From assembly GCF_001422445.1 (NCBI RefSeq), contig NZ_LMNA01000001.1, positions 604,735 through 668,734 of the forward strand: a stretch of DNA of 64,000 nt, given 5' to 3'. A program made the position numbers and the translations under genes. This stretch comes from Pseudorhodoferax sp. Leaf274 (GTDB lineage: Bacteria; Pseudomonadota; Gammaproteobacteria; Burkholderiales; Burkholderiaceae_C). Numbering within the stretch: the stretch's first letter is position 1; every line of letters begins with the position of its first letter. This document shows positions 6,801-38,749 of this stretch, one piece after another. The notes under the pieces were generated by a model. That model did not search any database, was not told the DNA's origin, and saw nothing but the letters and a program-made list of their open reading frames with translations.

Positions 6801-6891
6801 GTGAAGCGGGCTCCACGCTCCCCCGCTGCGCGCGGTCCGTTGCCCCCCAAGGGTGTGCGTCAATGCCTTCAAGCGGCCGGGCGCCACTGAC

Positions 6892-9877: not shown

Positions 9878-9908
9878 ACTCGCGGCCTGCTTCCCCTAGG
9901 AGATCCCC

Positions 9909-11284: not shown

Positions 11285-11823
11285 GCGTCGGCGTGCTCAC
11301 GCTGCCGGGGTGGCAGGGCTCTGGCCCCGGCCATTGGCAGACCTTGTGGGAGCAGCGCCACGGCGACCGCCGCGTCGAGCAGCACGACTGGACGCGGCCG
11401 CTGCGCGGCGACTGGCTCGCGCGGCTGGACGAGGTGCTGCTGGGCCTGCCGCAAGAGCAGGGCGTGGTGCTGGCCGCCCACAGCCTGGGCTGCATCCAGG
11501 TGGCCGCCTGGGCCGACCACAGCCGGCTGACGGCGCGCGTGCGCGGTGCCCTGCTGGTCGCGCCCGGCGATGTCGAGCGCGAAGACCTGCGCGTGCTGCT
11601 GCCGGGTTGGGCGCCCATCGTGCGCCGGCGCTTGCCATTCCGAAGCCTGCTCCTGGGCAGCCGCAACGACCCCTACTGCACCCAGGAGCGCGCCCAGGCC
11701 ATGGCGCGGGACTGGGGTGCGACTTACCACGACATGGGCGCCGGCGGGCATCTGAACGCCGCATCGGGACTGGGCGACTGGCCCGCCGCGCGCGCCTTGC
11801 TTGAAGAACTCCGGAAAGAATAG
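11281..11823 (+). CDS. RBBP9/YdeN-family alpha/beta hydrolase
   Basis: A 180-residue small serine hydrolase. It begins with the family pattern LPGWQGSGPGHWQTLWE; the nucleophile elbow reads AAHSLGC, and the late GAGGHLNAASG supplies the likely catalytic His. Substrate is unknown for the family in bacteria. It overlaps the parA stop by 4 bases and ends 5 bases before parB, so it is cotranscribed between the two partition genes. Confidence 0.85.
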   Translation: MSVGVLTLPGWQGSGPGHWQTLWEQRHGDRRVEQHDWTRPLRGDWLARLDEVLLGLPQEQGVVLAAHSLGCIQVAAWADHSRLTARVRGALLVAPGDVEREDLRVLLPGWAPIVRRRLPFRSLLLGSRNDPYCTQERAQAMARDWGATYHDMGAGGHLNAASGLGDWPAARALLEELRKE

Positions 11824-11828
11824 ATCCT

Positions 11829-16737: not shown

Positions 16738-17136
16738 ATGACCACCATCCTCCCACCCGATGCGGCGGGCGGCGTCCAGGCGCGCCACCAGGCCGCGCTG
16801 AAGGAAGGCCGCTTCCTGATCCAACGCTGCGGCGACTGCAGCCAGCACGTCTACTACCCACGCGCGCTGTGCCCGCACTGCGGCAGCGAAGCGCTCGAAC
16901 TGGTCGCGCCCGCCGGCACCGGCACCGTCTACTCCGTGACCACGATGCGCCGCAAGCCCGAGGCCGGTGGCGACCTCAATGTGTCGCTGATCGACCTGGA
17001 CGAAGGCGTGCGCCTGATGAGCCGCGTCGAAGGCGTGCCGGCCAGCGATGTGCGCATCGGCCTGCGCGTCGAGGCGCGCGTGCTGCAGCGCGAGGGCGCG
17101 GACGCGCTCGTGGTGTTCGATCCGGTGCAGGGGTGA
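16738..17136 (+). CDS. Zn-ribbon OB-fold protein (DUF35), thiolase/aldolase partner
   Basis: A 132-residue DUF35 protein: zinc ribbon with CGDC and CPHC (residues about 38-57) followed by the OB fold (GTVYSVTTMRRKP onwards). In steroid side-chain degradation, DUF35 subunits bind thiolase-like Ltp2 to form a retro-aldolase; elsewhere they accompany SCP2-type thiolases. The next gene, 4 bases on, is such a thiolase-like protein, so the two are expected to form a complex. The ATG at 16738 is preferred over one 42 bases upstream because the domain starts after it. Confidence 0.88.
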   Translation: MTTILPPDAAGGVQARHQAALKEGRFLIQRCGDCSQHVYYPRALCPHCGSEALELVAPAGTGTVYSVTTMRRKPEAGGDLNVSLIDLDEGVRLMSRVEGVPASDVRIGLRVEARVLQREGADALVVFDPVQG

Positions 17137-17140
17137 CGCG

Positions 17141-18316
17141 ATGAGCGATTGGAAACAACTGCGCGGCCGTGCCGCGATTGCCGGCGTGGCCACCTTCGGC
17201 TGCGGCGAAGCCCCGGGCTACACCGACATGGAACTGCTGGCCATCTCGGCCCGCCAGGCCGTGGCCGATGCGGGCCTCAAGATGAGCGACATCGACGGCC
17301 TGTGCACCGCCAGTGCCGCCGCCACCATGTGGGCCATGCCCGTCGTCGAGCACCTGGGCATCCGCCCGGCGTACATCGACTCCACGATGATCGGCGGCTC
17401 TAGCTTCATCGCCCACCTGCTGCCGGCCATGCACGCGCTGGAGTCGGGCCAGTGCAATGCGGTGCTGGTCTGCTACGGCAGCACGCAGCGCACCGCCACC
17501 TTCGGCCGCAAGGAAGTCGTGGCCAGCCGCAAGTTCCTGGACCCGCAGCCCTACGAGACGCCCTACGAGCCCATGATGCCGCTGTCGGCCTACGCGCTCG
17601 CTGCCGCACGCCACATGCACCAGTACGGCACCACGCGGCGCCAACTGGCCGAGGTGGCCGTGGCCGCGCGCCAGTGGGCGCAGAAGAACCCCGAGGCCTT
17701 CATGCGCGACCCGCTCACGATCGAGGACGTGCTCAAGGCCCGCATGGTCAGCGACCCGCTGTCGGTGCGCGACTCTTGCCTGGTCACCGATGGCGGCGGC
17801 GCCTACGTGCTGGTGCGCGCCGACCGCGCGAAGGACCTGCCGAACAAGCCCGTCTACGTGCTGGGCAACGGCACGGCCTGCTGGAACCGCCAGATATCGT
17901 CCATGCACGACGTGACCGTGACGGCCGCCAAGGACTCCGGCGCCGCCGCGTTCGCGATGGCGGGCCTGGCGCCCAAGGACATCGACGTGCTCGCGCTGTA
18001 CGACGCCTTCACCATCAACGTGCTGCTGTTCCTGGAAGACCTGGGCTTTTGCAAGAAGGGCGAGGGCGGCCCGTTCGTCGAGAACGGCGCCATCGCACCG
18101 GGCGGGCGCCTGGCCGTCAACACCAACGGCGGCGGCCTCTCCTGCGTGCACCCCGGCATGTACGGCATCTTCGCGCTGATCGAAGGCGTGCGGCAGCTGC
18201 GCGGCAACTGCGGCGAACGCCAGATCCTTGGCGCCAAGACCGCGCTGGCGCATGGCAACGGCGGCACGCTGTCCAGCCAGGCCACCGCCATCCTCGGCCT
18301 GGCCGAAACCCTTTGA
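17141..18316 (+). CDS. Thiolase-like (SCP2/Ltp-type) enzyme lacking the nucleophilic cysteine
   Basis: A 391-residue thiolase-fold protein of the lipid-transfer/SCP2 class. Where a thiolase has its acyl-accepting Cys, this one reads MIGGSSFIA (Gly86-Ser87-Ser88), and the second Cys motif near the C-terminus is HGNGG (His371). His337 in CVHPGMYG is retained, and LALYDAFT contains a Tyr-Asp pair reminiscent of Ltp2-type aldolases. Claisen-type thiolysis by the normal route is therefore doubtful; retro-aldol cleavage of a beta-hydroxyacyl-CoA, as in Ltp2-DUF35 complexes, is a reasonable inference. Gene order DUF35 then thiolase supports complex formation. Confidence 0.83.
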   Translation: MSDWKQLRGRAAIAGVATFGCGEAPGYTDMELLAISARQAVADAGLKMSDIDGLCTASAAATMWAMPVVEHLGIRPAYIDSTMIGGSSFIAHLLPAMHALESGQCNAVLVCYGSTQRTATFGRKEVVASRKFLDPQPYETPYEPMMPLSAYALAAARHMHQYGTTRRQLAEVAVAARQWAQKNPEAFMRDPLTIEDVLKARMVSDPLSVRDSCLVTDGGGAYVLVRADRAKDLPNKPVYVLGNGTACWNRQISSMHDVTVTAAKDSGAAAFAMAGLAPKDIDVLALYDAFTINVLLFLEDLGFCKKGEGGPFVENGAIAPGGRLAVNTNGGGLSCVHPGMYGIFALIEGVRQLRGNCGERQILGAKTALAHGNGGTLSSQATAILGLAETL

Positions 18317-18335
18317 GAACCTGAAGGACCTGACC

Positions 18336-19496
18336 ATGGCCCACACCCAAGACAAGTACGAAGAAATCCGCGACGCCGTGCGCTCGCTGTGCGCCGAGTA
18401 CCCCGACGAGTACTTCCGCAAGATCGACGAGCAGCGCATCTATCCCGAGGCCTTCGTCGACGCCCTGACCAAGGCCGGCTGGATGGCCGCGCTGATCCCG
18501 CAGGAGTACGGCGGCTCCGGCCTGGGCCTGACCGAGGCCTCCGTGATCATGGAAGAGGTCAACCGCGCCGGTGGCAACTCCGGCGCCTGCCACGGGCAGA
18601 TGTACAACATGAACACGCTGCTGCGCCACGGCTCCAAGGCGCAGAAGGAGTTCTACCTGCCCAAGATCGCCACGGGCGAATGGCGGCTGCAGTCCATGGG
18701 CGTGACCGAGCCCACCACGGGCACCGACACCACCAAGATCAAGACCACGGCCGTGAAGAAGGGCGACCGTTACGTCATCAACGGCCAGAAGGTCTGGATC
18801 AGCCGCATCCAGCACTCCGACTTCATGATCCTGCTGGCGCGCACCACGCCACTCGCGGACGTGAAGAAGAAGAGCGAAGGCCTCTCGATCTTCATGGTCG
18901 ACCTGCGCCAGGCCGAGAAGAGCGGCATGACCGTGCGGCCCATCCTGAACATGGTCAACCACGAGACCAACGAGCTGTTCTTCGAGAACCTGGAGATCCC
19001 GGCCGAGAACCTGATCGGCGAGGAAGGGCAGGGCTTCAAGTACATCCTCGATGGCCTGAACGCCGAGCGCACGCTGATCGCCGCCGAATGCATCGGCGAC
19101 GGCTACTGGTTCATCGACCGCGTCTCCAAGTACGTGAAGGACCGCATCGTGTTCGGCCGCCCCATCGGCCAGAACCAGGGCGTGCAGTTCCCCATCGCCG
19201 AGGCCTACATCGAGGTTGAGGCCGCCAGCCTCATGCGCTGGAAGGCCTGCGAGCTGTTCGACGCGCACCAGCCCTGCGGCGCCCAGGCCAACATGGCCAA
19301 GTACCTCGCGGCCAAGGCCAGCTGGGAGGCGGCCAACGCCTGCATCCAGTTCCACGGCGGCTTCGGCTTCGCCTGCGAATACGACGTGGAACGCAAGTTC
19401 CGCGAGACGCGGCTGTACCAGGTCGCGCCGATCTCCACCAACCTGATCCTGAGCTTCGTGGCCGAGCACATCCTCGGGCTGCCGCGCTCGTTCTGA
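18336..19496 (+). CDS. Acyl-CoA dehydrogenase family protein with atypical catalytic site
   Basis: A 386-residue flavoprotein with the acyl-CoA dehydrogenase fold: N-terminal helices, the central VTEPTTGTDTTKIKT beta domain, and the C-terminal helical part with QFHGGFGFACEYDVE. The usual catalytic Glu in YEGTS is absent: the equivalent segment is LYQVAPIST with Gln362, and the base may lie elsewhere, as in some family branches. It is 19 bases after the thiolase-like gene and 10 before MmgE/PrpD, so part of one operon. Substrate unknown. Confidence 0.87.
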   Translation: MAHTQDKYEEIRDAVRSLCAEYPDEYFRKIDEQRIYPEAFVDALTKAGWMAALIPQEYGGSGLGLTEASVIMEEVNRAGGNSGACHGQMYNMNTLLRHGSKAQKEFYLPKIATGEWRLQSMGVTEPTTGTDTTKIKTTAVKKGDRYVINGQKVWISRIQHSDFMILLARTTPLADVKKKSEGLSIFMVDLRQAEKSGMTVRPILNMVNHETNELFFENLEIPAENLIGEEGQGFKYILDGLNAERTLIAAECIGDGYWFIDRVSKYVKDRIVFGRPIGQNQGVQFPIAEAYIEVEAASLMRWKACELFDAHQPCGAQANMAKYLAAKASWEAANACIQFHGGFGFACEYDVERKFRETRLYQVAPISTNLILSFVAEHILGLPRSF

Positions 19497-19506
19497 GGAG
19501 CTGGAC

Positions 19507-20859
19507 ATGAGTGAGCATCCCAGCCGAGACCTGGCCGCCTTTGCCGCCGGCCTGCGTTTCGAGGACATTCCCGCGCCCGTGCTGCGCCGCACCGAGGACC
19601 TGTTCCTCGACTGGTACGGCTCGGTGCTGGCCGGCAAGGGTTCGCGCGCGGTCGAGTCCATCGCCAGCTTGGCCCGCGCCATGGGTCCGGCCGATGGCGC
19701 GAGCGAGGTGCTGATCTCGCGCACACGCAGCAGCCCACTGTTCGCCGCCATGGTCAACGCCGCGGCCTCGCACGTGGCCGAGCAGGACGACGTGCACAAC
19801 GGCTCGGTGTTCCACCCTGCGGCCGTGGTGTTCCCGCCCGCGCTGGCCGTGGCCCAGGCCATCGGCGCTTCGGGCAAGGATCTGCTCGTGGCCTCGGTGG
19901 TCGGCTACGAGGTTGGCATCCGCGTCGGCGAGTTCCTGGGCCGTTCGCACTACCGCATCTTCCACACCACGGCCACGGCCGGCACCGTGGCGGCCGCGGC
20001 CGCCGTGGGCCGCCTGCTGGGCCTGGACGCCGGCCAGATGCTGCACGCCTTCGGTTCCGCCGGCACCCAGGCGGCCGGCCTGTGGGAGTTCCTGCGCGAC
20101 GCGGCCGACAGCAAGCAGCTGCACACGGCCAAGGCCGCCAGCGACGGCCTGCTGGCCGCCTACCTGGCCAAGGACGGTTTCACGGGCGCGCAGCGCATCC
20201 TGGAAGGCAAGCAGGGCATGGGCGCCGGCATGTCGACCGACGCCAACCCCGCCAAGCTGACCGACGGCCTGGGCACGCGCTGGACGCTGGCCGAGACCTC
20301 GTTCAAGTACCACGCCTCGTGCCGCCACACGCACCCGGCCGCCGACGCGCTGCAGCAGGTCGTGCGTACGCACGGCCTCAAGCTCGCCGACATCGCCCAG
20401 GTCACGACCCACGTGCACCAGGGCGCCATCGACGTGCTGGGCCCGGTGACAGACCCCAGCACGGTGCACCAGAGCAAGTTCTCCATGGGCACGGTGCTGG
20501 GCCTGATCGGCGCGTTCGACCGCGCGGGCCTGGCGGAATTCGACGCGCACTTCCGCAGCCCCGAGGTGGTCGCGCTGCGCGACAAAGTCACCATGGTGCT
20601 CGATGCCGAGGTCGATGGCGCCTATCCTCAGCGCTGGATCGGCAAGGTCACGGTGCTCACCACCGACGGCCGCACGCTGCATGGGCGCGTGGACGAACCC
20701 AAGGGCGACCCCGGCAACACGCTGAGTCGCGCCGAGATCGAAACCAAGGCGCTGCAACTGTCCGCGTATGCGAACGGCGCAACCCCCGACGAGACGCGCG
20801 GCGTGGCCGAACGCGTCTGGCGCATGGCCGAGTGGCCGCGCGTCACCAACCTGCTGTAA
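19507..20859 (+). CDS. MmgE/PrpD family protein
   Basis: A 450-residue member of the MmgE/PrpD family, which includes 2-methylcitrate dehydratase and cis-aconitate decarboxylase and acts on tricarboxylate-like substrates. Recognisable parts are the AEQDDVHNGSVFHPAAVV stretch (about residues 90-110), AFGSAGTQAAGLWEFL, and KYHASCRHTHPAADAL near 265. No prpB or prpC is present, so a methylcitrate-cycle role is not indicated. It follows the acyl-CoA dehydrogenase closely and precedes the SDR gene by 33 bases. Confidence 0.85.
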   Translation: MSEHPSRDLAAFAAGLRFEDIPAPVLRRTEDLFLDWYGSVLAGKGSRAVESIASLARAMGPADGASEVLISRTRSSPLFAAMVNAAASHVAEQDDVHNGSVFHPAAVVFPPALAVAQAIGASGKDLLVASVVGYEVGIRVGEFLGRSHYRIFHTTATAGTVAAAAAVGRLLGLDAGQMLHAFGSAGTQAAGLWEFLRDAADSKQLHTAKAASDGLLAAYLAKDGFTGAQRILEGKQGMGAGMSTDANPAKLTDGLGTRWTLAETSFKYHASCRHTHPAADALQQVVRTHGLKLADIAQVTTHVHQGAIDVLGPVTDPSTVHQSKFSMGTVLGLIGAFDRAGLAEFDAHFRSPEVVALRDKVTMVLDAEVDGAYPQRWIGKVTVLTTDGRTLHGRVDEPKGDPGNTLSRAEIETKALQLSAYANGATPDETRGVAERVWRMAEWPRVTNLL

Positions 20860-20892
20860 ACACCCAATTCCCAAGACGAAGGAGCACACAAC

Positions 20893-21813
20893 ATGAGCGA
20901 ACAAACATTGATGGCCGGCAAGGTCATCGTCGTCACCGGTGCCGGTGGCGGCATCGGCCGCGACATCGCGCTGGCGCTGGCCAAGTCCGGCGCGCGCGTG
21001 GTGGTCAACGACATCGGCGCGTCCGTCAGCGGCGAAGGCAATGACGCCGGCCCCGCGCAGAAGGTGGTCGACGAGATCAAGGCTCTGGGCGGCGAGGCCG
21101 TGGCCAACACCGACAGCGTGTCCGATGCGCGCAGCGGCGCCCGCATCGTCACCTCGGCGCTCGACACCTTCGGCCGCATCGACGGCGTGGTGAACAACGC
21201 CGGCATCCTGCGCGACCGCTTCTTCCACAAGATGAGCGACGACGAGTTCGACGCCGTCATCAAGGTCCACCTGTACGGCAGCTACTACGTGAGCCGCGCG
21301 GCCGCCACGCACTTCAAGGAGCAGAACTCCGGCGTGTTCGTGCACATGACCAGCACCTCGGGCCTGATCGGCAACTTCGGCCAGGCCAACTACTCGGCCG
21401 CCAAGCTGGGGCTGGCCGCGCTGTCCAAGTCCATCGCGCTGGACATGCAGAAGTTCAATGTGCGGAGCAACTGCATCGCGCCGTTCGCCTGGAGCCGCAT
21501 GATCGGCTCGATCCCCACCGAGACCGACGCCGAGAAGGCCCGCGTGGAACGCATCAAGCAGATGACGCCGGCCAAGATCGCGCCGCTGGCCGTGGCGCTG
21601 TGCAGCGATGCGTCGCAGGACACCAACGGCCAGATCTTCGCCGTGCGCAACAACGAGATCTTCCTGATCAGCCAGCCGCGCCCGGTGCGCTCGGTGCACC
21701 GCTCCGAAGGCTGGACGCCCGAGTCCGTGCTGAGCCACGCGCTGCCGGCCATGAAGGCCAGCTACTTCGGCCTGGACCGCTCGGGCGACGTGTTCACCTG
21801 GGATCCGGTCTGA
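20893..21813 (+). CDS. SDR-family 3-hydroxyacyl-CoA dehydrogenase-like oxidoreductase
   Basis: A 306-residue short-chain dehydrogenase. NAD-binding TGAGGGIGRDIALAL is near residue 16, NNAG follows in VVNNAGILRDRFF, and the catalytic Ser-Tyr-Lys are in STSGL and YSAAKLG. The sequence resembles the dehydrogenase domain of peroxisomal multifunctional enzyme 2 (hydroxyacyl-CoA oxidation), with an extra C-terminal segment after 240. AAGGAG precedes the ATG. It is last in the DUF35 operon; an acyl-CoA hydroxy intermediate is the likely substrate. Confidence 0.87.
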   Translation: MSEQTLMAGKVIVVTGAGGGIGRDIALALAKSGARVVVNDIGASVSGEGNDAGPAQKVVDEIKALGGEAVANTDSVSDARSGARIVTSALDTFGRIDGVVNNAGILRDRFFHKMSDDEFDAVIKVHLYGSYYVSRAAATHFKEQNSGVFVHMTSTSGLIGNFGQANYSAAKLGLAALSKSIALDMQKFNVRSNCIAPFAWSRMIGSIPTETDAEKARVERIKQMTPAKIAPLAVALCSDASQDTNGQIFAVRNNEIFLISQPRPVRSVHRSEGWTPESVLSHALPAMKASYFGLDRSGDVFTWDPV

Positions 21814-21843: not shown

Positions 21844-22749
21844 TCAGCGCTTGCCCACCTGCAGCGCCGCCCGGTGCAGGTGCGCCACGAAATGCCGCAG
21901 GGCGGGCTTGAGCAGCGCACCGCGCCGCACGATGGCGCCCAGCGTCAGCGGCAGGTGGCCTTCCTTGATCGGCACCACCGCCATGTACTGCGCGGCCAGC
22001 GGGTGCGTGGCGATGGGCATCGGCATCAGGCCCACGTAGTCGCCCTGTGTCAGCAGTGCCAGCAGCGCCAGCGTGCTGTTCACCACCGCCGCCGGCATGG
22101 GCGGCGTGAGGCCATGCAGGTCGAACAGCTGGCGCGCATAGCCTGACTTGCCCGTGAGGCTCGTGAACACCCAGCGTGCCGCGACCAGCTGGCCCAGCGA
22201 GCGCGCACGGGCCAGCGGGTTGCCCTTGCCCACCACCACGGCCATCTCGATCGGCATCAACGCCTCCACCTCGAACTCGCCGGGCGGCAGGTTGTCCGGG
22301 ATGGGGCCGACCACCACGTCGACCTCGCCCTCGCGCAGCAGCGTGAGCTGGGCCATGTAGAGCTCTTCGCGCACACGCAGCTGGATGTCGGGGTAGTCGC
22401 GGCCGAAGGTGCGCATGGTCTCGGGGATCAGCAGCATCACCGCCAGCGGCACCGCGCCCACGCCCAGCTCGCCGACCATGCGGCCACCGAGCTGGTCGAT
22501 CTGCTCCTGCGCATCGTCCAGCTCGCGCATCGCGCGCCGGCCGTGCTCGAGCAGCACCTTGCCCTGCGCCGTGGGGAACACGCCGGCCGTGGAGCGCTGC
22601 AGCACCGGCGCGCCCACCGCGCGCTCCAGCTCGCGCATGGCCTTGGTCACGGCCGGCTGCGACACCCCCAGGCGCCGCGCCGCGCCGCGCAGGCTGCCTT
22701 CCTCCACGGCAGCGATCAGCGTCTGCAGGGCGGTGAGCTTGATCCCCAT
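21844..22749 (-). CDS. LysR-family regulator, probable regulator of the gallate genes
   Basis: A 301-residue LysR protein: N-terminal winged helix (LTALQTLIAAVEEGSLRGAA, then LGVSQPAVTKAMREL) and a C-terminal effector domain. It is divergent from the gallate dioxygenase gene, the usual place for a pathway LysR, and in Pseudomonas putida gallate use is controlled by a LysR protein, GalR. The ATG at 22749 is preferred over 22758 and 22767 because it fits the family N-terminus and leaves an ATA-N9-TAT box outside the gene. Confidence 0.88.
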   Translation of the reverse strand: MGIKLTALQTLIAAVEEGSLRGAARRLGVSQPAVTKAMRELERAVGAPVLQRSTAGVFPTAQGKVLLEHGRRAMRELDDAQEQIDQLGGRMVGELGVGAVPLAVMLLIPETMRTFGRDYPDIQLRVREELYMAQLTLLREGEVDVVVGPIPDNLPPGEFEVEALMPIEMAVVVGKGNPLARARSLGQLVAARWVFTSLTGKSGYARQLFDLHGLTPPMPAAVVNSTLALLALLTQGDYVGLMPMPIATHPLAAQYMAVVPIKEGHLPLTLGAIVRRGALLKPALRHFVAHLHRAALQVGKR

Positions 22750-22758
22750 GCGAACCAT

Positions 22759-22775
22759 GATAACCATGGGCTATC
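22759..22775. promoter_or_regulatory. Candidate LysR-type box upstream of gallate dioxygenase
   Basis: GATAACCATGGGCTATC is an interrupted palindrome of the ATA-N9-TAT form typical for LysR regulators. It lies between the divergent LysR and gallate dioxygenase genes, 10 bases from the LysR start. Confidence 0.5.
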
Positions 22776-22890
22776 GCGCCCCCCAACGCGGCATCTTCCG
22801 GCGCCCGCGACGCCTGCCTAAAGTCCACCCGTTCGTCGTTGATCCATCGCAAACCTGCGGATCGGCAACGCCTGGAGGAGACACCCACAC

Positions 22891-24198
22891 ATGGCCACGA
22901 TCGTCGGCGGCATCGCCGCCTCGCACACCCCCACCATCGGCTTCGCGTTCGACCGCGACAAGCAGGACGACCCGGTGTGGAAGCCCATCTTCGACGCGTT
23001 CCGCCCGGTGCAGGAATGGATCGCAGCCAAGCGGCCCGACGTGCTGCTGATGGTCTACAACGACCATGCCACGTCGTTCTTCTTCGACCACTACTCGGCC
23101 TTCACGCTGGGCGTGGGCGCGCAGTGGCAGGTGGCCGACGAGGGCGGCGGCGCGCGCGACCTGCCGCCCATCGCCGGCCACCCGGCCCTGGCCGCCCACA
23201 TCGGCCAGAGCCTGATGATGGAAGAGTTCGACATGTCCTTCTTCCAGGACCGGCCGCTGGACCACGGCATCTTCTCGCCGCTGTCGGTGATGTGCCCGCA
23301 CGAGCCGGGTTGGCCGGTCAGGCTGCTGCCGCTGCAGATGGGCGTGCTGCAGTTCCCCGTGCCCAGCGCGCGCCGCTGCTGGAAGCTGGGCCAGGCACTG
23401 CGCCGCGCCGTCGAAAGCTACCCCGAAGACCTCAAGGTGGCCATCGTCGCGACGGGCGGCCTGTCGCACCAGGTGCATGGCGAACGCGCGGGCTTCAACA
23501 ACCCGCAATGGGATGCGCAGTTCCTCGACCTGTTCGAGCGCGACCCCGAGGCGTTGACGGGCATCACGCAGGCCGAATACGCCGCGCTGGGCGGCATGGA
23601 GGGCGCCGAGGTCATCATGTGGCTGGTCATGCGCGGCGCGCTGGCCGCGCAGGTGGAGTGCAGGCACCGCGCCTACTACCTGCCTTCGATGACCGGCATC
23701 GCGACCGCCATCTACGAGCCCGTGCAGCAGGCGTCCATGCCAGGCGTGGTGGCGCGCCACCGCGAGCGCATCGCCACGCAGCTGGCCGGTGCCGAGGCCT
23801 TGCCGGGCACCTACCCTTACACGATCGCGCGCAGCGTCCAGGGCTACCGGCTCAACAAGTTCCTGCACGCGCTGATCGAGCCCGCGCAGCGGGCCCGCTT
23901 CCTGGCCGACGAGGCCGCCACCCTGCGCGATGCGGGACTGACCGACGAGGAGTGCCGCCTCGTGCGCGCGCGCGACTGGCGCGGGCTGATCCACCACGGC
24001 GTGATCTTCTTCATGCTGGAAAAGCTCGGCGCCGTGGTCGGCGTGTCCAACCTGCACATCTATGCCGCCATGCGTGGCGAGAGCCTGGAAGACTTCCAGA
24101 AGACGCGCAACACCCAGGCCGTGTACTCCGTGGCCAGCGGCGCCGCGCCCCGGCACGCCTGGGACGCACCCGCCGCGCCCGCCGCGGCCGCCAGCTGA
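22891..24198 (+). CDS. galA: Gallate dioxygenase (LigAB-type extradiol ring cleavage)
   Basis: A 435-residue type II extradiol dioxygenase with a LigB-like catalytic domain (1-280) fused to a LigA-like C-terminal domain (about 300-410), the layout of gallate dioxygenases GalA and DesB. Fe(II) ligands His12 (ASHTP), His59 (NDHA) and Glu240 (GAEVIMW) are visible, as are the catalytic His125 (LDHGIF) and His193 (LSHQVHG). It opens gallate to 4-oxalomesaconate. GGAGGAG lies before the start. Neighbours are a LysR regulator, an aromatic-acid transporter and a tannase. Hydratase and aldolase genes for the next steps are not in the window. Confidence 0.9.
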   Translation: MATIVGGIAASHTPTIGFAFDRDKQDDPVWKPIFDAFRPVQEWIAAKRPDVLLMVYNDHATSFFFDHYSAFTLGVGAQWQVADEGGGARDLPPIAGHPALAAHIGQSLMMEEFDMSFFQDRPLDHGIFSPLSVMCPHEPGWPVRLLPLQMGVLQFPVPSARRCWKLGQALRRAVESYPEDLKVAIVATGGLSHQVHGERAGFNNPQWDAQFLDLFERDPEALTGITQAEYAALGGMEGAEVIMWLVMRGALAAQVECRHRAYYLPSMTGIATAIYEPVQQASMPGVVARHRERIATQLAGAEALPGTYPYTIARSVQGYRLNKFLHALIEPAQRARFLADEAATLRDAGLTDEECRLVRARDWRGLIHHGVIFFMLEKLGAVVGVSNLHIYAAMRGESLEDFQKTRNTQAVYSVASGAAPRHAWDAPAAPAAAAS

Positions 24199-24279
24199 TC
24201 CCGCGGCCTCGCGTCCGCCACCCATCCCCCACCAACCCGAACAAGGCCGGCCCGCAGGGGCACGGCCCGGAGACAAGCC

Positions 24280-25629: not shown

Positions 25630-25697
25630 CCGTTCACCCGCCCCGACGGGGCCTTCATTTCCCACCACGATGCCCGCTGGGCCCAAGGAGACTGTGC

Positions 25698-32001: not shown

Positions 32002-32907
32002 CTACAGCAACCGATCCGCGAAGCTGAAATTCGCCAAATGCCGCACCAGCTCCGCCGCCAACCTGGGCAGCGGCTGGCCGGCGCGGTTGACGATCTTGGT
32101 CTCGCGCTGGGCCCAGGCGTCGGTGAGCGGCACCAGGGCCAGCTTCATGGTCCGCGCGTGGCGCGCCGCCGACGAGCGCGGCAGGATGCCGATGCCCACG
32201 CCGGCTTCCACCAGCAGGCAGATCGACTCGAAGCTGGAGACCTGGATGCGGAACTCCAGGTTGCGGCCGATCTGGCGCGCCAGCGGCGGCAGGAAGTTGG
32301 CCAGCGCGCTGCCTTCGGCCAGCGAGATGTGCGGCTCGTCCAGCGTCTGCACGAAGTCCATGCGCGGCAGCGCCGCCATGGCATGCCGTGCCGGCACCAC
32401 CACCACCAGTTCATCGGCGACGAAATCGCGCACCTCCAGGCCCTGCGTGTCCACGTTGCCGGCCACCAGGCCGATGTCGGCATGCGCCTCGTGGATCGCC
32501 ATCACGATCTCCTGGCTCAGCCGCTCGCGCAGGTCGATGCTCACGTCCTTGTGCTGCGCCAGGAAGCTGGCCAGCGCCGAGGGCAGGGCGCTGGTGATCG
32601 AGGTGGTGTTGGCCAGCACGCGCACATGGCCCTTGGCGCCCTGGGCGTAGTCGCGCAGGTCGATCTTCAGGTGGTCCACCTGCTGCAGCACCTTGCGCGC
32701 GTGGTGCAGCAGCGCCTCGCCGGCCGGATTCAGTTCCACGCCCTGGGGCTTGCGGTAGAACAGCTTGGCGCCGATGTTGTCTTCCAGCTGCTTGATGCGC
32801 GTGCTGGCCGCGGCCAGCGAGATGCAGGCGCGCTCGGCCCCGCGCCGCAGGTTGGATTCCTCGGCGACGAAGACGAACAGGCGGAGGTCGAACAGGTCGA
32901 AGTGCAT
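32002..32907 (-). CDS. LysR-family transcriptional regulator
   Basis: A 301-residue LysR regulator (MHFDLFDLRLFVFVAEESN at the start, helix-turn-helix around ACISLAAASTRIKQLEDNIG). It is divergent from the Bug-acyl-CoA dehydrogenase operon at 33037, which it probably controls. The 129-base gap holds the 31-nt motif at 32934-32964. The ATG at 32907 is chosen from the family N-terminus; an upstream start would cover that motif. Confidence 0.88.
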   Translation of the reverse strand: MHFDLFDLRLFVFVAEESNLRRGAERACISLAAASTRIKQLEDNIGAKLFYRKPQGVELNPAGEALLHHARKVLQQVDHLKIDLRDYAQGAKGHVRVLANTTSITSALPSALASFLAQHKDVSIDLRERLSQEIVMAIHEAHADIGLVAGNVDTQGLEVRDFVADELVVVVPARHAMAALPRMDFVQTLDEPHISLAEGSALANFLPPLARQIGRNLEFRIQVSSFESICLLVEAGVGIGILPRSSAARHARTMKLALVPLTDAWAQRETKIVNRAGQPLPRLAAELVRHLANFSFADRLL

Positions 32908-32933
32908 GGCGTGGGGCCGCGAGCGTACCCCAG

Positions 32934-33036: not shown

Positions 33037-34014
33037 ATGCCGTCAAACCTTCCCCGTTCCGCCCGCCGCACTGCGCTGGCGGGCTTGCTGTGCGCCGGTG
33101 CGCTGGCCGCCGCGCCTGCGTGGGCACAGCAGCAGCCCGTGCGCCTCATCGTCGGCTACGCGGCCGGCGGCCCGGTCGACACGGCCGCGCGCCAGTTCGC
33201 CCAGGTGTTCGGCCGCGAGCTGGGGCGCACGGTGATCGTGGAGAACAAGGCCGGCGTGGCCGGCGCGCTGGGCGGCGAGACCGTGGCCCGCGCGGCGCCC
33301 GACGGCAGCGTGCTGTACTTCGGCGCCAGCCCCACGCTGACGATCAGCCCGCACGTGCTCAAGAGCATGCCCTTCGATCCGGTGAAGGACCTGACGCCGC
33401 TGGCGCCGGTGCTGAGCTACGCCAATGCGCTGGTCATCAACAAGGACCTGCCGATCAAGAACCTCAAGGAGCTGATCGCGTATGCCAAGGCCAACCCCGG
33501 CAAGTTGTCCTACGGCTCGGCCGGCATGGGGGCATCGAACCACCTCTCCGGCGAACTGTTCGCCAAGCAGAGCGGCCTCTCGATGACGCACGTGCCCTAC
33601 AAGGGCAACGCGCCGGCCATGACCGATGTGATCGGTGGCCAGCTGACGATGATGTTCGACATCGTCAGCACCGCGCGCAACTACATCCAGACAGGCCGCG
33701 TGCACCCGCTGGCCGTGACCTCGCGCGAGCGCAACGCCTCGCTGCCCGACGTGCCCACCATGCGCGAGGCCGGCCTGCCGGGCTACGAGGTGATCGGCTG
33801 GTATGGCGTCTACGGCCCGGCGCAGATGAAGACCGAGCAGGTGGCGCAGGTCAACACCGCCGTGAACCGCACGCTGGCCGACGAGGGCCTGCGCAAGATC
33901 TGGGCCGAGCAGGGCTACGACATGTGGAAGGGCGCGCCCGCGGTGCTGGCCGAGCAGCAGCGCAAGGACCTGGAGATGTGGCGCGGCGTGACCCAGGGCA
34001 TCAAGTTCGAATGA
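33037..34014 (+). CDS. Bug-family tripartite tricarboxylate receptor
   Basis: A 325-residue periplasmic receptor of the Bug/TctC family. A Sec signal peptide ends at AWAQQ near residue 30; the mature protein starts PVRLIVGYAAGGPVDTAARQ and includes YKGNAPAMTDVIGG, both family hallmarks. These receptors bind carboxylates for TctAB permeases; none is adjacent. It leads an operon with a second Bug gene and acyl-CoA genes, and CCAGGAGAC lies before the ATG. Confidence 0.9.
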   Translation: MPSNLPRSARRTALAGLLCAGALAAAPAWAQQQPVRLIVGYAAGGPVDTAARQFAQVFGRELGRTVIVENKAGVAGALGGETVARAAPDGSVLYFGASPTLTISPHVLKSMPFDPVKDLTPLAPVLSYANALVINKDLPIKNLKELIAYAKANPGKLSYGSAGMGASNHLSGELFAKQSGLSMTHVPYKGNAPAMTDVIGGQLTMMFDIVSTARNYIQTGRVHPLAVTSRERNASLPDVPTMREAGLPGYEVIGWYGVYGPAQMKTEQVAQVNTAVNRTLADEGLRKIWAEQGYDMWKGAPAVLAEQQRKDLEMWRGVTQGIKFE

Positions 34015-34022
34015 GGACCGCC

Positions 34023-34997
34023 ATGTTCAAGCACACCGCTCCCTGGATCGCTGCACTGGCCGTCACCACGTCGGCCGCACCCGCCCTGGCGCAGGACGCC
34101 TGGCCCACCAAGCCCGTCACCCTCATCGTGCCGGCCGCGCCCGGCGGCACCACCGACATCGTCGCGCGGCTGCTGGCCGATGGCCTGTCGCGCGCCTGGG
34201 GCCAGAGCGTGGTGGTCGACAACAAGGCTGGCGCGGCCGGCATCATCGGCTCGCAGCAGCTGGTGCGCTCCGCGCCCGATGGCTACACGCTGATCATGGG
34301 CAACATCGGCCCCAACGCGATCAACTACAGCCTGTACAAGAAGCTGCCGTACAAGGCCACGGACTTCGCGCCGGTGACGCTGGCCGTCTCGGTGCCCAAC
34401 GTGCTCGTGGTCAACGCCGGCTCGGGCATCACGAGTGCCAAGGACCTCATCGCCAAGCTCAAGGCCGAGCCGGCCAAGCACGCGTTCGGCTCCTCCGGCA
34501 AGGGCCAGTCGCCGCACCTGTCGGGCGAGATGTTCCTGCAGCGCACCGGTACCAAGGCAGAGCACGTGGCCTACAAGGGCGCCGGCCCGGCCGTGGCGGC
34601 GCTGCTGGCCAACCAGTACACCTTCATGGTGGACAACCTGCCCAGCTCGATCGCGCAGATCCAGGGCGGCAAGTTCCGCGCGCTGGCGCTGACCGGCGCC
34701 ACGCGCAGCCCGCAGCTGCCCGACGTGCCCACCATGGCCGAGGCCGGCGTGCCCGACATGGTGGTCACCGCCTGGTTCGGCCTGATGGCGCCGGCCGGCA
34801 CGCCGCCGGCCATCGTCCACAAGATCCAGCAGAGCGCCCGCCAGGTGCTGCAGGCGCCCGAGAACGTGCAGCGCCTGCGCGGCATGGGCGCCGAACCCGG
34901 CGGCAACACGCCGGAGGAGTTCGCCCGCTTCATCGACGCCGAACGCGCGCGCTGGCACAAGACCGTCGAGGCCGCCGGGCTCTCGATGGACGAATGA
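34023..34997 (+). CDS. Bug-family tripartite tricarboxylate receptor (second copy)
   Basis: A 324-residue Bug receptor with signal peptide ending ALAQD and mature start WPTKPVTLIVPAAPGGTTDI, then YKGAGPAVAALLANQ. It shares the fold of the preceding protein but is clearly divergent, so it is an old paralogue rather than a recent duplicate. It starts 8 bases after the first receptor gene. The ligand is probably an organic or aromatic acid related to the acyl-CoA enzymes downstream (inference). Confidence 0.9.
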   Translation: MFKHTAPWIAALAVTTSAAPALAQDAWPTKPVTLIVPAAPGGTTDIVARLLADGLSRAWGQSVVVDNKAGAAGIIGSQQLVRSAPDGYTLIMGNIGPNAINYSLYKKLPYKATDFAPVTLAVSVPNVLVVNAGSGITSAKDLIAKLKAEPAKHAFGSSGKGQSPHLSGEMFLQRTGTKAEHVAYKGAGPAVAALLANQYTFMVDNLPSSIAQIQGGKFRALALTGATRSPQLPDVPTMAEAGVPDMVVTAWFGLMAPAGTPPAIVHKIQQSARQVLQAPENVQRLRGMGAEPGGNTPEEFARFIDAERARWHKTVEAAGLSMDE

Positions 34998-35025
34998 CCT
35001 TTTCTTGACCTTTGATGGACCCGAC

Positions 35026-36189
35026 ATGATCCGCGACCCCGAAATCACCCAGGCCTTCCTGGACAGCGTGCGCACCTTCGTCAACGAGCGGCTGGTGCCG
35101 GCCGAGCACACCGTCGCCGAGACCGACCAGATCCCCGAAGACATCGTCAACGAGATGAAGGCCATGGGCCTGTTCGGCCTGACCGTGCCCGAGGAGTACG
35201 GCGGCCTGGGCGTGACGATGGAAGAAGAGTCGCTGATCATGTTCGAGATGGGCCGCACCTCGCCGGCCTTCCGCTCGCTGTTCGGCACCACGGTGGGCAT
35301 CGGCTCGCAGGGCATCCTGATCGACGGCACGCAGGCGCAGAAGGACCACTGGCTGCCCAAGCTTGCCAGCGGCGAGCTGACGGCCAGCTTCGCGCTGACC
35401 GAGCCCGAGGCCGGTTCCGACGCGGCCTCGCTGCGCACCACGGCGCGCAAGGCAACGGACGCGCAGGGCGAGCACTACATCGTCAACGGCAGCAAGCGCT
35501 TCATCACCAACGCGCCCACGGCCGGCATCTTCACGCTGATGGCGCGCACCGACCCCAACAACAAGGGCGCGGGCGGTGTCTCGTCCTTCATCGTCGACGC
35601 CAGGACGCCCGGCATCACGGTCGGCAAGCCCGACAAGAAGATGGGCCAGCGCGGCGCGCACACGGCCGATGTGACCTTCGACAACGTGCGCGTGCCGGCC
35701 GAGAACATCATCGGCGGCAAGGAAGGCCAGGGCTTCAAGACCGCGATGAAGGTGCTGGAGAAGGGCCGCATCCACATCGCCGCGATCTGCGTGGGCGCGG
35801 CCGAGCGCATGCTCGACGACGCGCTCAAGTACGCGATCGAGCGCCGCCAGTTCGGCCAGCCCATCGCCGAGTTCCAGCTCGTGCAGGCCATGCTGGCCGA
35901 CAGCAAGATGGAGGCCTATGCCGCGCGCTGCATGGTGATCGACGCCGCGCGCCGGCGCGACAACGGCGAGAACGTCTCGACCGAGGCCTCGTGCTGCAAG
36001 CTGTTCGCCTCCGAGATCTGCGGCAAGGTGGCCGACCGCGCCGTGCAGATCTTCGGCGGCTCGGGCTACGTGGCCGACCACGGCATCGAGCGCTTCTACC
36101 GCGACGTGCGCCTGTTCCGCCTGTACGAGGGCACGAGCCAGATCCAGCAACTCGTGATCGCGCGCAACATGATCAAGGCCGCGAGCTGA
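35026..36189 (+). CDS. Acyl-CoA dehydrogenase
   Basis: A 387-residue acyl-CoA dehydrogenase. The substrate-binding segment FALTEPEAGSDAASLRTTA, the FAD-contact region QIFGGSGYVADHGIER and the catalytic Glu in LYEGTSQIQ are all in place, so it should be active, in contrast to the family member at 18336. Start chosen at MIRDPE (35026) rather than 21 bases upstream. It lies in the LysR-divergent Bug operon with an acyl-CoA ligase, so it probably acts on the CoA ester of the imported acid. Confidence 0.9.
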   Translation: MIRDPEITQAFLDSVRTFVNERLVPAEHTVAETDQIPEDIVNEMKAMGLFGLTVPEEYGGLGVTMEEESLIMFEMGRTSPAFRSLFGTTVGIGSQGILIDGTQAQKDHWLPKLASGELTASFALTEPEAGSDAASLRTTARKATDAQGEHYIVNGSKRFITNAPTAGIFTLMARTDPNNKGAGGVSSFIVDARTPGITVGKPDKKMGQRGAHTADVTFDNVRVPAENIIGGKEGQGFKTAMKVLEKGRIHIAAICVGAAERMLDDALKYAIERRQFGQPIAEFQLVQAMLADSKMEAYAARCMVIDAARRRDNGENVSTEASCCKLFASEICGKVADRAVQIFGGSGYVADHGIERFYRDVRLFRLYEGTSQIQQLVIARNMIKAAS

Positions 36190-36227: not shown

Positions 36228-37196
36228 ATGCACCAGCCGCTGCGCGCGCTGTTCGCGGAGCGGCTGCGCCTGCCGCTGATCGCCGCCCCCATGTTCCGCG
36301 TGTCGGGGCTCGACCTCACGCTCGCGGCCTGCCGCGCCGGCGTGGTCGGCTCCTTCCCCACGGTCAACTGCCGCAGCGTGGCCGAACTGGACGACTGGCT
36401 CACACGCCTGGCGGCCGAACTCGGCCCGCAGGACGCACCGTTCTGCCCCAACCTGATCATGCGGCGCGAGAACCTGCGCGAGGAGTTGGCCTGCCTGCTG
36501 CGCCACCGCGTGGAACTGGTCATCACCAGCGTGGGCGCGCCCGATGCCGCCGTGGCGCCGCTGCACGACATCGGCTGCCGCGTGCTGGCCGACGTGGCCT
36601 CTGTGCGCCATGCCGAGAAGGCCATCGCCGCGGGCGTGGACGGCCTGGTGCTGCTGACGGCCGGCGCGGGCGGGCAGACCGGCTGGGCCAACGGCCTGGC
36701 CTTCGTGCGTGCCGTGCGGGCCTTCTACGATGGTCCCATCGTGCTGGCTGGCGGCGTGTCCGACGGCGCGGCGCTGCTGGCCGCGCAGGTGGCGGGTTGC
36801 GACCTGGGCTACATGGGCACCAAGTTCATCGCCACCGACGAGAGCATGGCCGAGGACGGCCACAAGCAGATGCTGGTGGACAGCCGGCTCGACGACGTGC
36901 TGCTCTCGCGCGCGTTCACGGGCCTGGAGACCAACACGCTGGTGCCGTCCATCGTGGCCGCGGGCCTGGACCCCAAGGCGCTGCCGACCGACATGAGCGA
37001 GGAACGCGCGGCCGCGCTGTACGGCAGCGGTGGCGAGACCAGCATCCGGCGCTGGCGCGACATCTGGAGCGCGGGCCACAGCGTCTCGGGCGTGGACCGG
37101 CGCGGCAGCGTGGCCGCGCTCGTGGCGCAGACAGCCGGCGAATACCGCGCCGCTGCGCAGGCGGCGATGGCGTGGTTGCCGGGCGTGGCGCGATGA
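36228..37196 (+). CDS. Nitronate monooxygenase/NPD-like FMN protein with altered catalytic residue
   Basis: A 322-residue TIM-barrel flavoprotein of the 2-nitropropane dioxygenase-like family. The N-terminus LPLIAAPMFRVSGLDL and phosphate-binding VLAGGVSDGAALLAA and DLGYMGTKFIAT fit the family. The segment that in nitronate monooxygenases reads GGHTG with a catalytic His is GAGGQTG here (Gln150), so nitronate oxidation is uncertain. Members of this kind often sit beside acyl-CoA genes. GGAG precedes the ATG; the stop overlaps the ligase start. Confidence 0.8.
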   Translation: MHQPLRALFAERLRLPLIAAPMFRVSGLDLTLAACRAGVVGSFPTVNCRSVAELDDWLTRLAAELGPQDAPFCPNLIMRRENLREELACLLRHRVELVITSVGAPDAAVAPLHDIGCRVLADVASVRHAEKAIAAGVDGLVLLTAGAGGQTGWANGLAFVRAVRAFYDGPIVLAGGVSDGAALLAAQVAGCDLGYMGTKFIATDESMAEDGHKQMLVDSRLDDVLLSRAFTGLETNTLVPSIVAAGLDPKALPTDMSEERAAALYGSGGETSIRRWRDIWSAGHSVSGVDRRGSVAALVAQTAGEYRAAAQAAMAWLPGVAR

Positions 37197-38749
37197 GCGC
37201 CGCCCACCAGCACCCGACCTACTGCGGCCTCGTGCTGCGCGCGCTGGCACGCTACCCCGACCGCGTGGCCTTCCAGACCGCCGAACGCCAGGTGCGCTAT
37301 GCCGAGGCCTTCGACTTCATCGGCCGCGCGCAGGCGGTGCTGCAGGCCGCCGGCCTGCAACGCGGCCAGCGCGTCGCGCTGCTCAGCGCCAACCGCTGGG
37401 ACAGCTGGTGCGCCGGCGTGGCCGCCCAGGCCCTGGGTGCCATCGTCACCTCGCTGCACCCGCTCGGCGCGCTCGACGCCCACCTCTACCAGCTGGCCGA
37501 TGCCGAGGTCAGCCTGCTCATCGTCGACGCCCAGGGCTTCGGCGAGCGCGGCGGCGAACTGGCCGCACGCTGCCCCGGCCTGCAGGTGCTCACGCTGGGT
37601 CCGGCCGGCTATGGCCAGGACCTGCTGCGCCTGGCCGATGCACACGGCACGGCCAACGCCTTGGACCTCTCGCTGCCCGGCGGCATCGCCACGCTGAACT
37701 ACACGGGTGGCACCACCGGCCAGCCCAAGGGCGTGGTCAAGACCTCGGCCGCCAACGCGCTGATGTCGCTGACGGTGATGGCCGAGTTCGAGCTGCCGCG
37801 CCGCCCCAGCTTCCTGGCCGTGGCGCCCATCAGCCACGTGACCGGCACCAACGTGCTGCCCGTGCTGTGCAAGGGCGGCACCGTGCACCTGCTCGAGCGC
37901 TTCGACCCCGAGCGGCTGCTGGCCACCATCGCACGCGAACGCATCAACTTCGCGCTGATGGTGCCCACCATGGTCTACGTGCTGCTGGACCACCCGGGCC
38001 TCGGCCAGCACGACCTGTCGTCGCTGGAACTCGTGCTGTACGGCGCCTCGCCGATGTCGCCCGCGCGCCTGGGCGAGGCCTTGGAGCGCATCGGCCCGGT
38101 GTTCTCGCAGCTGTACGGCCAGTCCGAGTGCTACCCCATCGCCACGCTGCCCAAGGCCGACCATGACGTGGCCCGCCCGCACCTGCTGGCCGCCTGCGGC
38201 TTCGCCAGCGCGGCCTGCGAGGTCGCGCTGCTGGACGACCAGCTGCAGCCCGTGCCGCCCGGCGAGGCCGGCGAGATCTGCGTGCGCGGCGGCATGGTGA
38301 TGAGCGAGTACTGGCGCCAGCCAGTAGCCACGGCCGAGGCCCTGGCCGGCGGCTGGCTGCACACCGGCGACGTGGCGCGCCGCGACGCCGAAGGGCGGCT
38401 GTACATCGTCGACCGCAAGAAGGACATGGTGGTCTCGGGCGGCTTCAACGTCTATCCGCGCGAGGTAGAGGACGTGCTGAGCAGCCACCCGGCCGTGGCC
38501 CAGGCGGCCGTGATCGGCGTGCCCGACGCCAAGTGGGGCGAATCGGTCAAGGCCGTGGTCGTGTTGCGGCCGGGCCAGCAGGTCGAGGCCGAGACGCTGA
38601 TGGCGCTGGTGCGCGAGCGCAAGGGCGCGCTGCACGCGCCCAAGCAACTCGTGTTCGCCGACGCGCTGCCGCAGACCGCGCTGGGCAAGATCGACAAGAA
38701 GGCGCTGCGCGCGCAGGAGTGGTCGGGCAGCGGCCGCAACGTCGCCTGA
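37193..38749 (+). CDS. AMP-dependent acyl-CoA ligase
   Basis: A 518-residue ANL-superfamily enzyme that would activate a carboxylic acid with ATP and CoA. Motifs: P-loop NYTGGTTGQPKG (about residue 166), A5-like LYGQSE, the hinge region GWLHTGDVARRD, DRKKDMVVSGGFNVYPREVE, and a catalytic Lys in LGKIDKKALR. It overlaps the NPD-like gene (ATGA). With the Bug receptors and acyl-CoA dehydrogenase it makes an uptake-activation-oxidation set. Confidence 0.9.
   Translation: MSAAHQHPTYCGLVLRALARYPDRVAFQTAERQVRYAEAFDFIGRAQAVLQAAGLQRGQRVALLSANRWDSWCAGVAAQALGAIVTSLHPLGALDAHLYQLADAEVSLLIVDAQGFGERGGELAARCPGLQVLTLGPAGYGQDLLRLADAHGTANALDLSLPGGIATLNYTGGTTGQPKGVVKTSAANALMSLTVMAEFELPRRPSFLAVAPISHVTGTNVLPVLCKGGTVHLLERFDPERLLATIARERINFALMVPTMVYVLLDHPGLGQHDLSSLELVLYGASPMSPARLGEALERIGPVFSQLYGQSECYPIATLPKADHDVARPHLLAACGFASAACEVALLDDQLQPVPPGEAGEICVRGGMVMSEYWRQPVATAEALAGGWLHTGDVARRDAEGRLYIVDRKKDMVVSGGFNVYPREVEDVLSSHPAVAQAAVIGVPDAKWGESVKAVVVLRPGQQVEAETLMALVRERKGALHAPKQLVFADALPQTALGKIDKKALRAQEWSGSGRNVA

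Follow-up and report, generated by a model that had tools for sequence, protein, structure and literature searches.

What does a five-gene operon do that combines a DUF35 protein and a cysteine-less thiolase-like enzyme with an acyl-CoA dehydrogenase, an MmgE/PrpD protein and a short-chain dehydrogenase/reductase (SDR)? This operon lies at positions 16738 to 21813 of a 64,000-nucleotide stretch of the Pseudorhodoferax sp. Leaf274 genome (assembly GCF_001422445.1, contig NZ_LMNA01000001.1, positions 604,735 to 668,734 of the forward strand), which is called the window here. We consider it an even chance that the operon is a lower module for methyl-branched (di)carboxylic acids that converge on methylsuccinate, in which the DUF35-thiolase pair most likely performs a retro-aldol cleavage. 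All five genes are on the plus strand and encode a DUF35/ChsH2-type protein with a Zn ribbon and an OB fold (16738..17136; PF12172, PF01796), a thiolase-fold enzyme without the usual Cys (17141..18316), the acyl-CoA dehydrogenase (18336..19496), the MmgE/PrpD protein (19507..20859) and an SDR of the MFE-2 type, that is, a (3R)-hydroxyacyl-CoA dehydrogenase by Pfam, structure matches and motifs (20893..21813). The gaps between the genes are 4, 19, 10, and 33 bases. The Pfam families concurred for each of the five proteins, and the gene order was kept in all six Pseudorhodoferax genomes (the window, L126-L129, and L140), with a divergent FAD oxidase gene to the left of the operon in each. The five genes are a real, tight operon, as the initial annotation had proposed. 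Among the NCBIfam matches shown for the five proteins, only that of the thiolase passed its cut-off.

The initial annotation had treated the operon as uncharacterised and, beyond the DUF35-thiolase pair, as matching no known steroid cluster. Two of the remaining genes can nevertheless be assigned: the MmgE/PrpD protein and the dehydrogenase resemble Msi and Mcd from the known pathway of methylsuccinate utilisation. Gonner et al. (2025, PMC12290011) showed that the itaconate cluster has two additional genes, one for Msi, a (S)-(R)-methylsuccinate isomerase whose substrate is the free acid rather than the CoA-ester, and one for Mcd, a (RS)-methylsuccinyl-C4-CoA dehydrogenase; the genetics of the cluster were described by de Witt et al. 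(2023, PMC9875883). The Msi residues given in the published numbering are His88, Glu91, His102, Tyr148, His152, Lys202, and Lys266 (PMC12290011), and the window protein carried all seven at a constant offset of +1 (H89, E92, H103, Y149, H153, K203, and K267). These residues were common to 53 of 55 aligned proteins; one exception was cut before the last residue, and the other was a paralog from the Leaf274 genome. That genome held a single other MmgE/PrpD protein at 1e-5, which was 31% identical and lacked the Glu and the Tyr of the Msi set. In the Msi tree (55 rows), the window protein grouped (99/97) with those of loci L032, L043, and L173, the last of which is a canonical cluster of Ich, Mcd, Ict, Ccl, and Msi. 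The closest solved structures were a Bacillus subtilis MmgE-type protein and the IDS epimerase. By its residues, its clade and its place next to the Mcd gene, the window protein looks like an Msi (PA0881 type), and methylsuccinate isomerisation is its predicted activity.

The acyl-CoA dehydrogenase was 75-89% identical to the dehydrogenases of five loci that carry all five cluster genes (L043, L059, L071, L084, and L091). It looks like an ortholog of Mcd (PA0879 type), with the corresponding activity predicted; this orthology rests on the five cluster loci, PA0879 itself being outside the comparison. The initial annotation had called this enzyme atypical, and the alignment bore this out: the place of the classical YEGT base reads YQVAP, without Glu, and a Glu is present in NAER instead. 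The Glu in NAER together with Gln at the YEG place was found in 23 of 23 aligned Mcd orthologs and in none of 45 proteins of the neighbouring acyl-CoA dehydrogenase family ACAD2, all 45 of which had the classical YEGT. The catalytic base therefore seems to have moved. Isovaleryl- and long-chain acyl-CoA dehydrogenases have their catalytic base at this first (NAER) place, and such a displaced base would suit a beta-branched acyl-CoA such as methylsuccinyl-C4-CoA.

The operon shares its adjacent Msi and Mcd orthologs and the seven Msi residues with the itaconate/methylsuccinate cluster known from PA0878-PA0883 and from Cupriavidus necator (PMC12290011, PMC9875883), but it has the DUF35 protein, the Cys-less thiolase and the SDR in place of Ict, Ich, and Ccl. 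These three genes were absent from the operon in all six genomes of the genus, so it is not a five-gene itaconate/methylsuccinate cluster. Candidate genes for Ict (78% identity), Ich (61-63%) and a Ccl-like protein (37-54%) were found elsewhere in the Leaf274 genome, and a Ccl-like gene was present in all six genus genomes (46-53% to the Ccl of locus L174). Neither thiolase nor DUF35 is mentioned in the main text of PMC12290011.

The gene context of the thiolase was analyzed in 80 named loci, which are the best 80 of at least 589 by similarity to the window thiolase and not a random sample. The genes came from a home-made caller and were grouped by single linkage (45% identity, 60% length), on both of which the counts depend; in 32 of the 80 loci the DNA on one side of the thiolase is shorter than 8 kb, which makes absences soft, and one locus (L096) shows no called thiolase. 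The DUF35 gene adjoined the thiolase gene in 53 loci and was fused with it in 10, among them L040 with a fusion protein of 537 aa, in agreement with the pairing noted at the outset; these fusions speak for a physical pairing of the two proteins. Within 10 kb of the thiolase, an SDR ortholog was found in 42 loci, ACAD2 in 42, Mcd in 18, Ich in 16, Msi in 15, Ict in 13, and Ccl in 6. At least one of Mcd, Msi, Ict, Ich, and Ccl was present in 21 loci, which span five families, and both Mcd and Msi in 14. This linkage occurred in about ten gene orders (L031, L032, L040, L043, L044, L050, L059, L071, L084, and L092), and the loci with Mcd or Msi span eleven named genera. The 15 loci with Msi near the thiolase compare with an expectation of 0.04, which would rise to 0.4 with an Msi in every genome; the expectation was taken from 40 of 300 genomes with Msi and 21 kb per locus and, as the sample consists of close relatives, gives orientation but does not test independence.

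The linkage was also mapped on the Msi tree. The linked Msi proteins formed no separate clade, and the linkage label needed seven changes, at least five of them by starred branches. The scatter of the label was near that of shuffled labels (141 of 500 shuffles were as low), and some rows counted as thiolase-free derive from short pieces of DNA; in the case of L143 (G292), the thiolase probably lies just beyond the piece analyzed, since the wider stretch L182 starts with ACAD2. An Msi specialised for larger substrates was considered and found unsupported: Msi proteins with and without the linkage intermingle on the tree, which makes methylsuccinate itself a likelier substrate than a special one.

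Seen from the Msi side, 20 Msi loci of the order had Mcd in 15 cases and the SDR ortholog in 4; they were hand-picked, mostly as the best-scoring, from the 40 Msi-bearing genomes among 300, and three of them are short. In Cupriavidus campinensis the SDR, LysR, Mcd, Msi, and Ich genes are followed 1.6 kb on by the thiolase and DUF35 genes. In Cupriavidus metallidurans CH34 (L172, NC_007974.2 434620-451969) the SDR, LysR, receptor, Mcd, Msi, and Ich genes stand together, and Ict, Ccl, the thiolase and DUF35 were not found in the 17 kb examined; this locus is a variant methylsuccinate cluster. One further locus, L183 (G157), holds the SDR, an MFE-2 hydratase-type MaoC, a CaiB transferase, Mcd, Msi, a receptor and 3-oxoacid CoA-transferase A/B in one row. 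It joins the methylsuccinate context with the CoA-transferase context described below, and the DUF35-thiolase is absent from its 19.5 kb stretch.

The thiolase-like protein carried the Pfam domain Thiolase_C_1 and scored 678 bits against NF004811/PRK06158 (cut-off 421). It was 97% identical to its P. soli counterpart, and its closest solved structures by sequence were 4u4e, 9myr (CtSal), and 6ok1 (TcLtp2); 4u4e (Sphaerobacter) shares GGSS, YD[S]F, and HPG with it. Its motifs read TMIGGSS, YDAF, and SCVHPG, where the SCP2-type thiolases of the same neighbourhoods align NCSTG, HDCF, and GHP; it thus has neither the nucleophilic Cys of NCSTG nor the HDCF of that type. The initial annotation had reported that both usual cysteines were missing, with Gly-Ser-Ser at the nucleophile site and His at the second. 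No Cys was found at the nucleophile position in either of two alignments, but the residue at this position is Met83 in one and Gly86 in the other, and the Ser-Ser follows directly after. The His cited for the second position (His371 of HGNGG) is shared with SCP2-type thiolases that depend on Cys (QHN); the true departure is Ala289 in YDAF, which stands in place of the Cys in the SCP2 motif HDCF. Two of 111 aligned thiolases read TCVGGSS; one alignment puts their Cys at the nucleophile position, and another puts it three residues ahead.

In the tree rooted on SCP2 thiolases (49 rows), BbsB, of which residues 142-377 were compared, branched first, and the remaining 43 rows outside the SCP2 group formed one clade (100/99) with Sal, Ltp2, IpfD, and the window group. 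The tree leaves out L021 and the rows L041 and L051 of the SCP2-type family THIO14, and several of its branches are long, so that it should be read with caution. Placement among Cys-dependent thiolases, which the initial annotation had named as counting against its proposal, did not occur. Tyr287 (YDAF) and His337 (CVHPG) of the window protein stand at the places of Ltp2 Tyr294 and Tyr344. In Ltp2 (294/344), Sal (302/352), and the window protein (287/337) alike, the acid position comes 50 residues after the YD Tyr. For Ltp2, published work points to Tyr294 and Tyr344; for Sal, it points to Tyr302 and Cys304, with Gln352 in the position of Tyr344 (PMC12329534). Judged from the alignments, the window thiolase has its own signature within the Ltp2/Sal/IpfD clade, namely YDAF with His at the place of the Ltp2 acid Tyr.

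The window pair was compared with four characterised systems. Ltp2-ChsH2(DUF35), the actinobacterial steroid aldolase, shares the Cys-less thiolase fold, the DUF35 partner, the YD base Tyr and a C4 Zn ribbon (PMC12329534, PMC11321319); however, it has YDHF, with the base Tyr294 and His296, where the window protein has YDAF, and the acid Tyr344 in place of His337, and the window DUF35 protein is free-standing. The proposal of an Ltp2-type retro-aldolase therefore stood as to clade and DUF35 partner, which the window protein has in common with Ltp2, Sal, and IpfD, but not as to residues. Sal-Shy, the proteobacterial bile-acid aldolase, shares the clade, the base Tyr and DUF35, but Sal has an essential Cys304 (YDCY) where the window protein has Ala289, and Gln instead of the acid-place His, and the ribbon of its DUF35 partner is C3H1, against C4 in the window (PMC12329534). 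IpfD-IpfE of ibuprofen degradation (pIBU218; IpfD was taken as the gene between the ring dioxygenase and the DUF35 gene) shares YDAF, the lack of Cys and the DUF35 neighbour, whereas IpfD has Tyr (GFY) at the acid place, adjoins a ring dioxygenase and a ligase, and is 36-38% identical to the window protein. The ipfD gene was reported to be needed for growth on ibuprofen, with propionyl-CoA as product (PMC9195938). BbsAB, the benzoylsuccinyl-CoA thiolase of anaerobic toluene degradation, also joins DUF35 and thiolase with an SDR and an acyl-CoA dehydrogenase, in a route on 2-substituted succinates. BbsB shares Ala as the third residue and the His of GHP with the window thiolase, but it has His where the window protein has Tyr and branches outside the window clade. 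Membership in BbsAB was rejected on scores of 28 bits against a cut-off of 250 (NF053627) and 140 against 750 (NF053628). A search for the true BbsB family gave no match above the cut-off in 300 genomes of the order, and of 255 plasmid matches, the 8 that were listed shared no more than 51% identity.

The window DUF35 protein matched 6ok1_B, the DUF35 protein of the TcLtp2 complex, best among PDB entries (2e-15). Its Zn ribbon, starting at residue 31, is of the C4 type (C-x2-C-x10-C-x2-C), and Pfam found no fused MaoC domain. A second DUF35-thiolase pair is present in the Leaf274 genome (G000:C29:263066-264693; L123 15066-16693), with an Ltp2-like active site (SYENF, and Tyr at the acid place); its neighbours resemble acyl-CoA dehydrogenase and CoA-transferase genes. 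At G002:C34:371830-372972 and G004:C43:1633-2775, thiolase-like paralogs (38% identical) are each interrupted by a single in-frame stop; these may be pseudogenes or reflect sequencing errors.

The SDR of the operon carries the Rossmann and S-Y-K motifs (TGxxxGxG, NNAG, and S-Y-K). The initial annotation had called it MFE2-like, and its best PDB matches, 2et6 ((3R)-hydroxyacyl-CoA dehydrogenase) and 1gz6 (17beta-HSD type 4), agree.

A second block of genes (32002-38749) sits ten kilobases downstream of the operon. It consists of a LysR regulator on the minus strand (32002..32907) and, on the plus strand, two TctC/Bug-type solute receptors (33085..34997; PF03401), ACAD2, a second acyl-CoA dehydrogenase with the classical YEGT base (35026..36189), and two tentative members, a nitronate-monooxygenase-family flavoprotein (36228..37196; PF03060) and an AMP-forming acyl-CoA ligase (37193..38749; PF00501/PF13193). 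LysR, the first receptor and ACAD2 were 75-85% identical to genes at most 3.2 kb from the thiolase in Aquabacterium humicola (L032). The LysR proteins of L032 and L043, each encoded no more than 3.2 kb from the thiolase, were 81% and 74% identical to that of the window, ACAD2 was 85% identical to its counterparts near the thiolase in both loci, and the first receptor was 75% identical to one 2 kb from the thiolase in L032. Homologs of the nitronate monooxygenase (40-48%) lay 1.3-8.9 kb from the thiolase in five loci, with one further partial match. The window ligase was only 31-39% identical to ligases near thiolases elsewhere. LysR, receptor, ACAD2, and nitronate monooxygenase stood together in all six genus genomes, with two receptors in five and one in the sixth, and the ligase was in the same block in five of six. 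LysR and the two receptors are probably part of the same system as the operon, and ACAD2 probably performs an earlier dehydrogenation of the pathway; the ligase is a tentative candidate for substrate activation.

Because Msi and Mcd are present, free methylsuccinate or a close analogue would be handled by the operon, and the DUF35-thiolase and the SDR would be placed upstream, producing it. In the proposed pathway, the ligase would activate a longer methyl-branched acid and ACAD2 would oxidise it, with a hydratase supplied from elsewhere. The DUF35 and thiolase-like proteins, acting as one enzyme, would split a beta-oxygenated acyl-CoA without an acyl-enzyme, and the MFE-2-type SDR would handle the hydroxyacyl-CoA next to this step. 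In a retro-aldol cleavage, Tyr287 would act on the beta-hydroxyl as the base, a role that its counterparts have in Ltp2 and Sal, and His337, in the position of Tyr344, would serve as the acid; acetyl-CoA (or propionyl-CoA) would be released with a carbonyl product that becomes free methylsuccinate. Msi would then convert (S)-methylsuccinate to the (R) form, an Ict-type CoA-transferase encoded elsewhere in the genome would activate it, Mcd would yield mesaconyl-C4-CoA, and Ich- and Ccl-type enzymes, also encoded elsewhere, would end the route at acetyl-CoA and pyruvate. The Cys-less site with its Tyr/His signature, the DUF35 pairing, the residues and tree placement of the Msi-like protein, the orthology of Mcd and the recurrent linkage can be read from the sequences, whereas the retro-aldol chemistry, the upstream acid, the placement of the SDR step and methylsuccinate as cleavage product are what we infer from them. 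The new side-chain or branched-acid route suggested initially is thus best read as one for a branched acid.

Retro-aldol chemistry is favoured by homology, since the clade mates perform it, but several observations weigh against the pathway in this form. No hydratase gene was found in the operon or in the second block, and the DUF35-thiolase was in none of the 20 Msi loci (stretches of 5-19.5 kb). Among the 42 loci with the SDR near the thiolase, 23 had no other thiolase found within 10 kb, and no more than 7 of the 80 loci, with none of the 19 linked to Mcd or Msi among them, had an aldehyde dehydrogenase at that distance. Another branch of the thiolase adjoins 3-oxoacid CoA-transferase A/B (L062, L065, L072, L087, L090, L094, and L176), and the place of His337, which is Tyr in Ltp2 and IpfD and Gln in Sal, is His in thiolases. 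The SDR context, the few aldehyde dehydrogenases and the retained His favour cleavage of a 3-oxoacyl-CoA. One such reaction is a hydrolytic retro-Claisen cleavage, in which the SDR would make a methyl-branched 3-oxo-dicarboxylyl-CoA, and water activated by His337 would split it into acetyl-CoA and free methylsuccinate. This would fit the SDR-bearing loci without another thiolase, the retention of His and loss of Cys, the use of the free acid by Msi, an MFE-2 hydratase-type MaoC (MaoC19) in 14 of 80 loci and the recurrence of CoA-transferases nearby (Ict in 13, CaiB24 in 11, and CoAT20 in 11 of 80). However, the closest characterised Cys-less relatives are retro-aldolases, and we know of no thiolase-fold enzyme that performs a hydrolytic retro-Claisen cleavage; we hold this reaction to be unlikely, though a serious alternative. 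Thiolysis independent of Cys, that is, the thiolase step of beta-oxidation on a branched 3-oxoacyl-CoA with CoA as nucleophile, as for the DUF35-bearing BbsAB, would account for a gene content like that of a beta-oxidation cycle and of the Bbs set (dehydrogenase, SDR, DUF35, and thiolase). Thiolases, however, generally work by a ping-pong reaction through a nucleophilic Cys with one CoA bound at a time, and the window protein has no Cys; moreover, a separate SCP2-type thiolase (THIO14) was within 10 kb in 18 of 80 loci, and its aligned examples keep the Cys. We regard such thiolysis as distinctly unlikely.

Two other explanations keep the Msi and Mcd assignments but change the role of the thiolase. 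If the operon itself were the methylsuccinate operon, the DUF35-thiolase might stand in for Ccl, which the operon lacks, and cleave (S)-citramalyl-CoA to acetyl-CoA and pyruvate; Mcd followed by hydration gives a tertiary beta-hydroxyacyl-CoA, like the substrate of Ltp2. This is improbable with a Ccl-like gene in every genus genome and with Ccl and the DUF35-thiolase together within 10 kb in 6 of 80 loci, and it would leave the SDR without a role. It is very improbable, in our view, that the thiolase/SDR genes belong to another pathway than the Msi/Mcd genes and have nothing more than co-transcription in common with them. The absence of the thiolase from the Msi loci agrees with such a separation, as do the 59 of 80 thiolase loci without any of the five methylsuccinate genes in the available DNA up to 10 kb; against it, the linkage recurs across gene orders and genera, at least five linkage changes are forced on the Msi tree, and the SDR alone is also near Msi in some Msi loci. 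A steroid side-chain cluster of the Ltp2 or Sal type, to which the DUF35 protein and the Cys-less thiolase had pointed initially, has hardly any probability left. The window motifs differ from those of both Ltp2 and Sal, the DUF35 protein is not fused to MaoC and has a C4 and not a C3H1 ribbon, and a separate Ltp2-like paralog (L123) is present in the same genome; this route was set aside on the motifs and the Zn-ribbon type. No steroid-ring genes were recognised in the neighbourhood tables of relatives and genus genomes, in which no search was aimed at them.

Gonner et al. (2025, PMC12290011) knew of no natural source of methylsuccinate other than itaconate reduction, which was shown for gut bacteria, and they had no direct evidence that this reduction takes place in soils. 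The recurrent linkage of the DUF35-thiolase and SDR with methylsuccinate genes suggests a second candidate source. If the hydrolytic cleavage were true, methylsuccinate in the environment would have an enzymatic origin in addition to the reduction of itaconate. Independently of the product, YDAF with His appears to be a further active-site type in the Ltp2/Sal/IpfD group, and bears on how thiolase folds become lyases. Hydrolytic retro-Claisen cleavage, if it occurs here, would to our knowledge be a new reaction for the thiolase fold. A literature search, with subscription papers mostly outside its reach, found no paper that joins the DUF35-thiolase with methylsuccinate genes.

Several minor features of these loci and of the window were also noted. 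The thiolase loci of the CoA-transferase type (about 10 kb) often carry biotin carboxylase subunits and a FadJ-like protein, or an SDR and an MFE-2-type hydratase. Between the operon and the second block, the window holds a LysR gene on the minus strand, a gallate dioxygenase (NF009904, 779 bits), an aromatic-acid MFS transporter and an esterase-like protein (21844-27560); by eye the last resembles tannase, while Pfam gave only BD-FAE. This gallate/tannin block was found at that place in this strain alone among the six genus genomes, and a functional link of the operon with the dioxygenase, transporter and esterase genes was dropped because the block is absent between both halves in the five others. 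Two small adjacent genes at 6552-7311 resemble, by eye, a Phd/VapB-type antitoxin and a PIN-domain protein. GidA/GidB-like and ParA/ParB-like genes, also identified by eye, stand in a row at 7308-12761, as is typical of an origin region, and the GC skew changes sign near 16 kb of the window.

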